Part shown: piece after piece, positions 57,356-61,597 of the stretch
Position numbering within the stretch: the stretch's first letter is position 1
How the letters are laid out: each line of letters begins with the position of its first letter
The notes under the pieces: generated by a model
Databases searched by the model: none
What the model was told of the DNA's origin: nothing
The model's input: only the letters and a program-made list of their open reading frames with translations
Assembly: GCF_000379765.1 (NCBI RefSeq)
Contig: NZ_KB903437.1
Coordinates: 1 to 64,000, forward strand
DNA length: 64,000 nt
Direction: 5' to 3'
Source: Flexithrix dorotheae DSM 6795
GTDB lineage: Bacteria; Bacteroidota; Bacteroidia; Cytophagales; Flammeovirgaceae
Position numbers and translations under genes: made by a program

Positions 57356-58570
57356 TTACCCATTAATAATTTCATGAAACAAATTCATGATTTCCTCATT
57401 GGCTTCCTGTCCGTTTTTATGCTTAAAATAATCTTTAAAAAGCTGATCGATATTCTTACTTAAATCAATAACATTTTGCTCTCCCTGAATTTTATCCAGG
57501 TTTTTGATTTCGGGAATAATCGAAACGATGCCAGAATGTACATTATAAAGCTCTTTCTTAGTTTGAGCTGTAATAAAAGAATCACTCACCAGCGTAAGTT
57601 CCACAAAAGTATCCGGATTCCCTTTCAACCATTCAATGGCCAAATCTTTATCTTCAAATTTTTTCCTGAACAATTTTTTCCCCGACTCCAACTCCAGCTT
57701 ATTATACTTCACATCCTTGCCTGGTTCAGCCTCTATGATGACAACATACTTTTTCTGATTGGCTTCACTGAAACTATATTCCAGCAAACTTCCGCTATAT
57801 AAAGCAGGGCTTTTACCTTCCTGATTAACATGGTGAAGCCTGTGTAAATGTCCCAGGGCAGTATATTGAATTTCTTTGGGAATATCTTCGGAATAAATAG
57901 GCTGAGCCCCTCCAACGTGCAGAATATGCCTCTCATCTTCTGGCTCTTCAGGTTTTTCCCCACCTTTTTTCATCATAAAAAGATGTGCCATTAAAATATT
58001 TACCCCTTTATCATCACAGTATTTTTTGGCCAATTCCTTCCAATTGTTTTTCAATACCATCCGCAATTGTTCCTCCTGGTTTTCAATTCCAAGAAATTGT
58101 TTTAACCGACCTTCATTGGCGTAAGGTGTCAATAAAATTCTGAGTGGAACATTAGCATTTGGCAATTGAAGTTCCACAAAACCCTGAGCAGACCTGGTGA
58201 TAGACAAACCACTTTCCAGAGCCATTGGAGAAACTTCGGTGGAAGGATATCCCACTAAAATAATCCCACATGCTTTGGCCAGCGGATCAGGGGCTTCGAT
58301 ACGATCGGGAGAATCGTGGTTTCCGGAAATGGCAATTACAGCTCTTTTCCCATTATTGGAAAGTTTATGAACAGACTTATAAAATAATTCAATCGCCTCA
58401 TTCGGTGGGTTAAACTGATCGTACAAATCTCCTGCAATAATTATTGCATCAACTTCTTCCCTTTCAGCAATTTCAATAATTTCTTCCAAGACCTGTTTTT
58501 GCTCTTCCAGCCTTGGCAAATCATTTAATCTTTTCCCCAAATGCCAGTCCCCTGTATGTAAAAGTTTCAT
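57356..58570 (-). CDS. sbcD: Exonuclease subunit SbcD
   Basis: A 404-residue metallophosphatase-fold nuclease, partner of SbcC. Metal-binding motifs: LLHTGDWHLGKRL (Asp8 and His10), AGDLYDQFNPP, GNHDSPDRI, and the later GHLHRLHH. The start is the ATG at 58570 (MKLLHTGDWH), which the family uses; an in-frame ATG at 58585 would add five residues. Forms one leftward unit with sbcC. Confidence 0.95.
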   Translation of the reverse strand: MKLLHTGDWHLGKRLNDLPRLEEQKQVLEEIIEIAEREEVDAIIIAGDLYDQFNPPNEAIELFYKSVHKLSNNGKRAVIAISGNHDSPDRIEAPDPLAKACGIILVGYPSTEVSPMALESGLSITRSAQGFVELQLPNANVPLRILLTPYANEGRLKQFLGIENQEEQLRMVLKNNWKELAKKYCDDKGVNILMAHLFMMKKGGEKPEEPEDERHILHVGGAQPIYSEDIPKEIQYTALGHLHRLHHVNQEGKSPALYSGSLLEYSFSEANQKKYVVIIEAEPGKDVKYNKLELESGKKLFRKKFEDKDLAIEWLKGNPDTFVELTLVSDSFITAQTKKELYNVHSGIVSIIPEIKNLDKIQGEQNVIDLSKNIDQLFKDYFKHKNGQEANEEIMNLFHEIING

Positions 58571-58862
58571 CTTCCTTGAGTACAAAAGGCTTCCCTTATT
58601 TTAAAACCTTTTGGGTAATACTTTTTAGCTTAAAAGTACCAAAATAGATTTTTATAAATCCTAAAACAAGACTTAGAGACTAAACAACAATAAAAGGAAT
58701 ATTTTAAAGGGTGAGATTAACAGAATAGCCTTCAAAAATTGTGTAAATATTAATAGAAACATGTTTAAATAAATAGAAACAAAATAGCTTTCCACCACAC
58801 CACTATTTAATATTGAGATGAAAGTAGGCTCTCTAAAAGGGGACTTCTTACTAAATCTAAAT
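58571..58862. other. AT-rich intergenic DNA upstream of sbcD
   Basis: About 290 bp, no ORF. A TTG (58667-58669 on the minus strand) 19 nt from CTATTTTG (58640-58647) is a weak promoter candidate for sbcD, with a -7 off the consensus. Confidence 0.3.
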
Positions 58863-59130
58863 TTTTCCTTCAGATGTCTACCTTATCTGGTTTTTTAGAG
58901 AAAGCTAAAAACCTCCCCTTTATTTACCCCTCAATTGAGGAGGCTAGGGACATAGCCGTCAGGTTAAAATCTTCCTCCTCGTTACGCTCCGCTAAGCAAG
59001 GTTCGAGAATGGCGGTTGTATCGCCAGTAAGCCAAAATAGCGTTTTAAACGCTTGGCTCGGCCATCCTCCTTGCAAACGAGGATGGTAAATTTGGTTAAC
59101 CTGACGGCTGTAGGACCAGGTGAAGGAAAA
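58863..59130. repeat. Nested inverted-repeat element (MITE-like or structured repeat)
   Basis: Outer arms TTTTCCTTCA (58863-58872) and TGAAGGAAAA (59121-59130) are complementary. Inside, a perfect 14-bp inverted repeat AGCCGTCAGGTTAA (58954-58967) / TTAACCTGACGGCT (59096-59109) encloses further hairpins: GGCG/CGCC at about 59011-59025, AGCCAA-GCGTTT/AAACGC-TTGGCT at about 59030-59057, and CCATCCTC/GAGGATGG at about 59063-59086. The core is markedly more GC-rich than its surroundings. There is no ORF of a transposase. It may be a miniature mobile element, a REP-like repeat or a structured RNA; whether it is repeated elsewhere cannot be told from this window. Confidence 0.6.
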
Positions 59131-59173
59131 GAAGCTGTCTATTTTTTTTATCACCTTTAATTCAATATCTATA

Positions 59174-61597
59174 TTACTCATTCCGCAAAGCATCCACAGG
59201 ATTACTGATTGCAGCTTTTACAGTTTGAATACTTACCGTGATCAGAGCTATTAGTAAGATCAATCCAAGTGGAAGCAGAAATACCCACCAGCCCAAATTA
59301 ATTTTATTGGCAAATCCCTCCAACCAGTTATTCATAGTAAACCAGGCCAAAGGAAGCGCCACAACACTTGCTACTATAATTAACCTCACGAATTCCTTTG
59401 AAAGTAAATTGATAATGCTAATTATGGAAGCTCCCAAAACTTTCCTCACTCCTATTTCTTTGGTACGCTGTACCACCATAAAAGAAGATAAACCAAAAAG
59501 CCCTAAACAGGCCACAAAAATGGCGAACCCTGCAAAAATTCCGAATATTTTTCCAAACTGCATGTCTGCTTTGTATTGTTTTTCAAAATGTTCATCAAGA
59601 AAGAAATATTCAAATGGATTTCCAGGGAAAAAGTCCCGGTAGGTCGCTTCTATAGTCCCTAAAGTTTCTCCAACCTGTTCAGGATTTAATTTCAGAGAAT
59701 AATAATTTCTACTTGAGGGAATTAACCGGAAGATTAAAGGATCGAAATTGCTTTTTAACGACTCATGATGGTAGTCCTTTATTACCCCAATAATTTTAAA
59801 GGTATCTCCCCAAAAGTATATTTTTTCATTTAAAGCCTCTTCCGGTTTTTGAAAGCCCAATAATCTAATAGCAGATTCATTGAACAACACGGTCTCCTCA
59901 TCAGTTTTGAAATCTCTTGAAAAATTCCTTCCTGAAATCACAGACAACTGAAAAGCATCTACAAAATTATAATCGATTCCCACTACCCTGTATTGATTGC
60001 TATTGGTCGGTTCATCACTTATTTTCCGGATTCCTCCGGCATTCCATCCCGGTTTACTTCCAGGTACTGCAGTAGAAACAGAAATATTTTCAATTTTCGG
60101 AAACCTCAACATTTCTGTTTTGAAACTTTCCACTCTATCGGAATAAGTTGAATCTCTGACTTCAGGTGCTTTTATCACTACAGTCTGGTCGATATCCACT
60201 CCCAAATCCTGGTTTTGCATATAATCCACCTGCTTCATTACAGTTAGTGTTCCGGCAATTAAAAATACAGAAGCTGCAAACTGGATAATTACCAACACTT
60301 TTCTGAGAAATACACCTTTAGCTGAAGTACTCATTTTCCCTTTTAGAGTGGTTACAGGCTGAAAAGACGAAAGAACAAATGCCGGATATATCCCAGCCAG
60401 AAAAGATCCAATTATAAAAAGTCCACTAAGCACCAGCCAGAATTCTACATTAGAAAAAAGAGATAGTGGAATATTTTTTCCTATTAGATTACTGAAAAAG
60501 GGTGTAACCATGACCAAAAGAACTAGTGCCAACATTATGGCAATGGCATTAATTATAGAAGATTCCAGTAAAAATTGTCTGATGAGTTGTGGTCTTTGAG
60601 AACCCATCACTTTCCGGATGCCAACCTCTTTTGCCCTATCAATGGATCTAGCAGTAGAAAGGTTAATATAATTCACCCATGCAATGAGGATAATGGTAAA
60701 GGCTATAATTAATAAGAAATAAACAGTATTTCCATCTCCATTCACTTCAGCTTCCATCATATAATCAGAATATAGATGAATATCCTGTACTGGTTGCAAA
60801 TTAAACTTTACCCAGGAATCATATTCTCTCAGGCTTTCACCAATAGTTTTTTCAATATAATCGGGAATTTTGGCTTCAAACTGTTTGTAGTCAGTTCCTG
60901 GAGCTAAAAGAATGTAGTTGTAAAATCCATCCCAAAACCAGGCAGTTCTCGTATCCTCTCCTTGCCAGTCTACATAAGTTTCAAATGAAAAAAGGATATC
61001 AAACTTTAAATGGGTATTTTCCGGATAGTCCTCTACCACTCCTACAACTTCAAAATCGTTTCTATCATTCAGGCTTAGGGTTTTTCCAATCGGGTCTTCA
61101 TCCTGAAAATATTTTCTGGCTGTTTTTTCATTAATAACAGCTTTATATGGCTCTTTTAATAATAGAGAATCTACTCCACCTTTAATGACTTTATATTTGA
61201 ACATGGGAAGAAATGAGGAATTTGCCATAAACATTCGCTCTTCTCTGAATTGTATTTTTTCCCCATTAGGTTTTTTATGTATGATTACTCCACCTATTGA
61301 TGTCAGTCTGGCAAAAGCTTCCACCTCTGGAAAGTTTTCTGATAAAGCCTGTCCTACAGCCGAACAACCAGCAGCCCACTGAGTAGATAATTCTCCTTTA
61401 TTAAACCGATCTTGTTGAATTCGGTAAAGGCTGGATCTATTCTCCAGGAAATTATCGTAGCTCAATTCGAAAGAAACATATTGGATAATTAAAAGACTGG
61501 CTGCAATGCCGATGGCTAATCCCAGAATATTGATGAATGAAAATATCTTATTCTTTAAAAGATTTCTGAGGGCAATGTTGAGGAAGTTTTTAAACAT
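59174..61597 (-). CDS. MacB/FtsX-type ABC transporter permease
   Basis: An 807-residue permease with the two FtsX-type modules: N-terminal ALRNLLKNKIFSFINILGLAIG then a MacB-like periplasmic domain (about 45-285), three helices (about 290-430), a second periplasmic domain (about 460-660) and three C-terminal helices (about 690-800). The EVGIRKVMGS and EIGVRKVLGA repeats before the helices are diagnostic. Such proteins couple an ATPase to periplasmic transport or signalling; the ATP-binding partner is not adjacent. Several paralogues are usual in Cytophagales. Confidence 0.92.
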   Translation of the reverse strand: MFKNFLNIALRNLLKNKIFSFINILGLAIGIAASLLIIQYVSFELSYDNFLENRSSLYRIQQDRFNKGELSTQWAAGCSAVGQALSENFPEVEAFARLTSIGGVIIHKKPNGEKIQFREERMFMANSSFLPMFKYKVIKGGVDSLLLKEPYKAVINEKTARKYFQDEDPIGKTLSLNDRNDFEVVGVVEDYPENTHLKFDILFSFETYVDWQGEDTRTAWFWDGFYNYILLAPGTDYKQFEAKIPDYIEKTIGESLREYDSWVKFNLQPVQDIHLYSDYMMEAEVNGDGNTVYFLLIIAFTIILIAWVNYINLSTARSIDRAKEVGIRKVMGSQRPQLIRQFLLESSIINAIAIMLALVLLVMVTPFFSNLIGKNIPLSLFSNVEFWLVLSGLFIIGSFLAGIYPAFVLSSFQPVTTLKGKMSTSAKGVFLRKVLVIIQFAASVFLIAGTLTVMKQVDYMQNQDLGVDIDQTVVIKAPEVRDSTYSDRVESFKTEMLRFPKIENISVSTAVPGSKPGWNAGGIRKISDEPTNSNQYRVVGIDYNFVDAFQLSVISGRNFSRDFKTDEETVLFNESAIRLLGFQKPEEALNEKIYFWGDTFKIIGVIKDYHHESLKSNFDPLIFRLIPSSRNYYSLKLNPEQVGETLGTIEATYRDFFPGNPFEYFFLDEHFEKQYKADMQFGKIFGIFAGFAIFVACLGLFGLSSFMVVQRTKEIGVRKVLGASIISIINLLSKEFVRLIIVASVVALPLAWFTMNNWLEGFANKINLGWWVFLLPLGLILLIALITVSIQTVKAAISNPVDALRNE

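Follow-up and report, generated by a model that had tools for sequence, protein, structure and literature searches.

Transposons of the IS200/IS605 type use a Y1 transposase of the HUH class, have hairpins at their ends, are not expected to make a target duplication, and are accompanied by transposase-less derivatives. The closest described systems to the element treated here are the repetitive extragenic palindromes (REPs) and their REP-associated tyrosine transposases (RAYTs, or TnpAREP), and the sections of PMC6006769 drawn on here, which also give background on IS200, distinguish a TnpAREP subclass 2.6, equivalent to RAYT group 5 of Bertels, with “atypical secondary structures” and the motifs NH[LIV]H, WQ, and YIH[QN]NP. 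In the Proteobacteria, two inverted REP units make up one small, intergenic, mobile unit, the so-called REPIN (REP doublet forming hairpins) or BIME (bacterial interspersed mosaic element), which also occurs in mosaic arrays (PMC6006769 and PMC8049555, in the parts used here). In addition, the portion of PMC3733652 used here reports RAYT-like genes that in some species have long inverted repeats on both sides, termed TIRtrons, and CGTC repeats from Bacteroidetes. The element considered in this report occupies positions 58951–59113 (163 bases) of a 64,000-nucleotide stretch of Flexithrix dorotheae DSM 6795 (contig NZ_KB903437.1, positions 1–64,000), and this whole stretch is referred to as the window. 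It belongs to a known kind, REP/RAYT, of which it is a new variant, and we consider it quite likely to be a non-autonomous, RAYT-less derivative, i.e., a REPIN resembling a miniature inverted-repeat transposable element (MITE), of a Bacteroidota RAYT unit.

Read inward from either end, the element presents an outer hairpin (hp1), a spacer with CGAG, and an inner hairpin (hp2), and two such doublets stand tail to tail between two edge motifs, in the order E, P7, P2, P6, P1, E′. These parts, and the DNA adjoining them, are as follows.

58951–59113: the element, consisting of edge E, two REP doublets tail to tail, and edge E′; sister copy at C40:17938–18045
58951–58967, plus strand: edge motif E (CATAGCCGTCAGGTTAA), left arm of the 14-bp repeat
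58974–59001, plus strand: hp1 “P7” (CCTCCTCGTTACGCTCCGCTAAGCAAGG), outer hairpin of the left doublet; loop inverted relative to the sister copy L002
59002–59010, plus strand: spacer TTCGAGAAT, from hp1 to hp2 (cf. NNGAGAA in the doublets of other Bacteroidota)
59011–59025, plus strand: hp2 “P2” (GGCGGTTGTATCGCC), inner hairpin of the left doublet; also beside the RAYT of L108
59039–59053, minus strand: hp2′ “P6” (AGCGTTTTAAACGCT), inner hairpin of the right doublet; also in L002, and with P1 alone in L003
59063–59085, minus strand: hp1′ “P1” (minus strand CATCCTCGTTTGCAAGGAGGATG), outer hairpin of the right doublet
59096–59113, minus strand: edge motif E′, right arm of the 14-bp repeat
58910–58949: piece of another dispersed repeat (“family C”) that adjoins the element on its left; similar in L006, L071–L076, and L081
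58679–59116: extra DNA relative to the corresponding gap of a congener, G001 (approximate, borders set by eye, flanks diverged)

The original prediction, made from the letters of the window, described a perfect 14-bp inverted repeat around some 128 bp, and this is what the DNA holds: AGCCGTCAGGTTAA (58954–58967) and TTAACCTGACGGCT (59096–59109) are complementary at 14 of 14 positions and lie 128 nt apart. The window contains six inverted repeats whose arms measure at least 14 bp and whose spacer is at most 150 (mean 0.18 in 40 dinucleotide shuffles); the other five all lack a long spacer. Inside it, the prediction counted three hairpins where there are four, that at 58974–59001 being imperfect, and it extended the element to 268 bp by outer 10-bp arms (58863–58872 and 59121–59130). 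The letters of these arms are present, but we rejected them as part of the element because such arms are common, close to chance level (59 in the window with a spacer of at most 250; shuffle mean 42.2, maximum 56), are placed asymmetrically, and fall outside the repeat borders. The element was also said to be richer in GC than its surroundings, correctly so (0.49 in 58950–59115 versus 0.28 in 58680–58860 and 0.25 in 59131–59170), and to hold no open reading frame (ORF), which is literally wrong: an 89-aa frame (58924–59193, minus strand) reads through the hairpins, though it has no Pfam match at an expectation value of 0.01 and is probably a spurious gene. As single-stranded DNA, the 268 nt fold with z scores of −6.8 (plus) and −7.0 (minus), and none of 200 shuffles was as good on either strand.

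The genome of F. dorotheae, 9.54 Mb in 101 contigs, carries many partial matches to the element and, on another contig, the sister copy L002, which is 91% identical over 108 nt. A second search, made with a related array, returned 53 matches, which include separate pieces of one array and pieces of another repeat; 30 loci were read out, 24 with hairpin modules and six with family C only, and in total the hairpin family occupies about 30 places, P1 (at most two mismatches) being present at 13. The commonest composite, P1-P2-P3-P4, is found at 12 loci, and since its P1-P2 and P3-P4 halves keep a near-constant offset (the same in nine of the 12, off by 1–4 nt in the others), it behaves as one unit. 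Some of these composites also carry a hairpin P5 and edge E, and P3-P4 is also found alone. Regarding their context, all 23 copies examined lie between genes, with an ORF overlap of 0–8 nt: 18 between tandem genes, three between convergent and one between divergent genes, and one undetermined. Of the 18 tandem-gene copies, 14 read from P3 to P4 against the direction of the genes (hand count), and a replication or transcription strand bias is possible. A DNA search of 28 genomes with the core of the element matched only its own genome and one weak place in G027 (expectation value 6e-4).

The hairpin loops of these copies are not all in the same orientation. The P7 loop of L002 is the reverse complement of that in the window, and the P4 loop at C14:328 kb (L004/L057) is inverted relative to the other 15 copies in a comparison that sees only pattern-fitting copies, two misoriented rows of L009 being set aside. 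Template switching or the processing of hairpins can be expected to invert small stretches inside them, and a recombinase is unnecessary. Sequences of the GCGAAGCG / GCGGAGCG type lie in the P4 and P7 loops (e.g., 58974–59001), and the DNA mini-hairpin GCGAAGC is unusually stable.

The gap that holds the element lies between a gene for a MacB/FtsX-type permease (59174–61597, minus strand) and an sbcD-like gene (57359–58585, minus strand), both named from Pfam. In the congener G001, whose SbcD is 91% identical, the same two genes follow in the same order, and the collinear gap is without the element, with 195 nt between the matching parts versus 587 nt here; this shorter gap probably represents the older state. 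As to the target duplication proposed earlier as a check, none convincing by eye was seen at the window copy or at the units of an order-mate, G036, described below. As to the A+T-rich DNA at 58585–58900, it has no strong repeat relatives, and the clear matches are confined to the family C fragment.

Beyond this genome, the hp1 motif CATCCTCGTTNNNAACGAGGATG was found in 56 stretches of the genome collection, 52 with titles read as Bacteroidota and 12 from a single metagenome-assembled genome. Of its sites, 61 can be oriented by their TTT loop, and in these hp1 is preceded by CT in 36, AT in 16, TT in four, and other bases in five, the canonical GT[AG]G foot being absent there; in several order-mates the preceding bases are CAAT or CACT. 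A perfect hairpin (stem of at least 6) lies within 45 nt downstream of hp1 at 28 of 63 sites, and upstream at five of 63. With a profile of the three RAYTs of F. dorotheae, a RAYT frame was found in 10 of the 56 loci, L095 and L099 being near-copies of each other, and hp1 lies no more than 150 nt from the frame in eight of the 10. One of these loci, L108, has the order P1-P2-RAYT-P2′-P1′-like, i.e., the layout of the window element plus a central gene, and gene-less arrays of four hairpins whose arms differ in sequence occur in L096, L145, L150, and, less perfectly, L133. The RAYT locus of L095 (PBTY01000046.1, titled Rickettsiales bacterium NP5) is nearly identical to L099 of Marinoscillum pacificum, and L095 is probably a wrongly binned contig or the product of a recent transfer.

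The RAYTs next to P1 are also related to one another. In a tree of 22 sequences, those of L099, L108, L122, L131, and L143 form, together with L218, L220, and L226, one clade of eight (ultrafast bootstrap, UFBoot, 100). L226 and L218 have the same hairpin layout with other stems, and the hairpins of L220 are less similar; L124, which has P1 1.3 kb away and other hairpins at its ends, lies outside the clade. Among the RAYTs of F. dorotheae, L010 clusters with L225, which comes from another family (UFBoot 100), and very similar GTTCGACATT-type hairpins occur in the two. At least two perfect hairpins (stem of at least 8) stand within 250 bp of 13 of the 22 RAYT genes, compared with 12 of 239 other genes, all from the genome of the window; because six of the 22 had been picked through P1, the count is also given without them, and is then seven of 16. 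The tree and the flank count use the same 22 genes, namely three from F. dorotheae, six from the 10 P1 loci that hold a RAYT frame, and 13 from the 17 relatives’ loci with hits. Those left out were fragments or near-duplicates (L095, L100, L130, and L147) and broken or divergent genes (L216, L217, L223, and L224), and two of the 19 relatives’ loci fetched, L213 and L222, had no RAYT match.

Whole units appear to be dispersed in the order to which F. dorotheae belongs. A directional search with hp1 and its spacer (at most two mismatches) matched 16 of 291 order genomes, including F. dorotheae and G001, and none with the reversed control. In several genomes the matches form inverted pairs that span about 650–750 bp, and RAYT frames are present in the loci read from G036, G116, G078, G161, G065, and G234. 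In G036, the full hp1-hp2-RAYT-hp2′-hp1′ unit has at least four copies (100% for the query itself, then 97, 94, and 92%) among at least 85 matches in all, many of them ends of about 80 bp only; these counts may be low, as the search scored 40 of 185 first-look candidates. When L259, L260, and L266 are aligned, some 20–25 of every 25 columns are identical inside the unit, one internal gap apart, and some 2–8 of 25 outside, and the change falls at the hp1 feet. The proteins of the G036 units carry NHLH, WQD, and YIHQNP, the gene of L259 being shortened by an internal deletion, while G116 holds three decayed units that are 85–91% alike. These alignments suggest that RAYT units of the G036/G116 type move, or have moved, whole. 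Ends of such units are clustered at G036:C51 and C7 as well as in L261 and L264, some with a spacing of about 90 bp, and in L261 a second doublet lies inside the RAYT frame of another unit.

Compared with the described systems, the likeness is closest to subclass 2.6: a distribution in Bacteroidetes, Y1 (PF01797) proteins with matching motifs in G036, hairpins that adjoin the gene and have copies elsewhere in the genome, and no GT[AG]G foot (PMC6006769, in the sections used). The RAYTs of F. dorotheae, however, deviate from the motifs in places (NHCH in L010, SHIH in L011). The element shares with the REPINs and BIMEs the intergenic dispersal, the mosaic arrays, and the inverted pair of REPs, and has RAYTs flanked by its doublets in other Bacteroidota, but each of its arms is a two-hairpin doublet, there is no GTAG tag, and different doublet families are joined. 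With the GTAG and CGTC REPs and the TIRtrons it has in common short palindromes and RAYT-like genes between inverted repeats (the portion of PMC3733652 cited above), whereas CT or AT, not a GTAG foot, precedes hp1 at 52 of the 61 sites. IS200/IS605 transposons are similar in their Y1 HUH transposase, hairpin ends, expected lack of a target duplication, and transposase-less derivatives; their left and right ends are unlike, whereas the ends here are inverted doublets.

The derivation from a RAYT unit draws on the dispersed repeats, the anatomy of the element, the doublet beside RAYTs of one clade elsewhere, the dispersal of related whole units, and the absence from the G001 gap. The element would be a RAYT unit whose gene is missing, the two doublets (hp1-spacer-hp2) facing each other tail to tail as they do around a RAYT gene. 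The hairpins would form on a single strand during replication or transcription, a Y1 (HUH) RAYT of subclass 2.6 or group 5 would recognize hp1 with its 5′ foot and cut, and it would then copy or move the unit in trans to another intergenic site, where the copies decay. That a RAYT mobilized the window copy, together with the mover, the direction, and the timing of the event, we infer from sequence comparison, and recognition of the folded strand by the RAYT, with a cut at the foot, is likewise presumed. A host function is not needed to explain the element.

Several results weigh against this derivation. The exact hairpin order of the window element recurs in one sister copy only, and the G001 gap has diverged too far for exact junctions, so that a base-exact empty site was not obtained from it. 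The edge E did not appear on any RAYT unit read elsewhere, and enrichment is lacking for its 17-mer (31 matches with at most three mismatches, 30 for the reversed control). Seven of the 22 RAYT genes, L011 of F. dorotheae among them, have no perfect hairpin by the rule of a stem of at least 8. Two alignments were made, A1 with 10 own-genome rows and L108, and A2 with 22 of 23 rows, L057, which has the flipped loop, being left out. The P1-P2 copies show no excess of covariation, and that of P3-P4 is modest (both sides had changed in seven cells, compared with a mean of 2.7 in shuffles, and 4 of 500 shuffles reached as many). Finally, a REPIN should have its cognate RAYT in the same genome. F. 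dorotheae has three RAYTs of this kind and two distant Y1 frames, 27–29% identical to the L108 protein, and none of the three belongs to the P1 clade, the two distant frames being outside the tree; as no RAYT of that clade was found, the P1-P2 arms look like orphans in their own genome. The local RAYT L009 is flanked by a doublet of the P4-P3 type and by another type, and the composite joins the orphan P1-P2 arms to the arm type of this resident RAYT in a dozen copies.

A classical MITE, in which the inverted repeat E would serve as substrate for a DDE-type transposase and the inner hairpins would be passengers, has in its favor the perfect 14-bp repeat at both ends of the window copy and the presence of E, with at most four mismatches, at one end of six other arrays. 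Both E ends, however, are recognized in the window copy only, doublets without E are dispersed in other genomes, and no convincing target duplication is seen by eye. The 17-mer shows the lack of enrichment given above, for which we rejected E as an enriched terminal repeat, and of its eight matches with at most two mismatches, five stand at array ends and three elsewhere, L151 within an unrelated palindrome and L155 and L158 inside open frames. We consider such a transposon improbable here. E may have been added locally or be left over from the original insertion site. Slightly less probable still is a functional RNA, an element that stabilizes or attenuates the permease messenger RNA and is kept for its structure. 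The position 60 nt past the permease stop codon on its coding strand, the strong folding, and the P3-P4 covariation speak for such an RNA, but the P1-P2 copies covary no more than expected, Rfam 15 gives nothing at gathering score over 58500–59500 (best expectation values 1.6–4.2, far below the gathering scores), and the copies stand beside many different genes in both orientations, have inverted loops, and are absent from G001. With covariation of this weak kind only, which is also the outcome of the covariation check proposed at the outset, a structural RNA was rejected.

A functional tie to sbcCD, with the element as hairpin substrate or regulator, deserves almost no credence. SbcCD cuts hairpin DNA, and the element is adjacent to sbcD; yet it lies about 365 nt upstream of where sbcD starts and only 60 nt from the permease gene, relatives occur at about 30 other places, and the sbcD locus of G001 is without the element. 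This link was rejected, and the adjacency, which the original prediction had called a coincidence, looks like one, as the 23 other copies examined sit in other intergenic gaps. Its choice of a MITE or a REP-like element holds for the REPIN-like pair of doublets, the inverted-repeat edges, the genome-wide repeats, and the absence from the G001 gap, and fails for the 268-bp extent. It was to be given up if the element proved unique, with no empty site and no structural conservation; the sister copy, the relatives at some 30 places, and the G001 gap were found instead, although the copies covary weakly.

The derivation from a RAYT unit also allows a wider reading, to which we give even chances, i.e., that RAYTs of subclass 2.6 or group 5 are complete transposons that move as one unit and not settled domesticated genes, that the RAYT-less arrays of four hairpins are their MITEs, and that in the composites of F. 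dorotheae orphan arms were captured next to the doublet type of another, resident RAYT, which would be cross-mobilization between RAYT families. The single locus is ordinary, and its interest lies in what it shows about the Bacteroidota branch of RAYTs. If units of this branch still move whole, they would form an extant bridge from IS200-type transposons to REP/RAYT systems; the simple directional doublet makes RAYT specificity directly testable, and such movement would also explain the intergenic hairpin arrays in these genomes.

Two further observations concern the surroundings of the hairpins. In L263 (G161:C5), tandem copies of CCCCAATAGT stand just before hp1, as if the foot had been repeatedly duplicated. 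Family C, a second dispersed repeat, is built of the modules CCCCCTCACCGAGGGGGTTAGGGGGAGG and GGAATGCCGAACC.., has full copies of about 200 bp, and occurs in L066 as well as in the loci listed above for its window fragment; edge E abuts it in three cases, to the left of the window element, in L002, and in L052.
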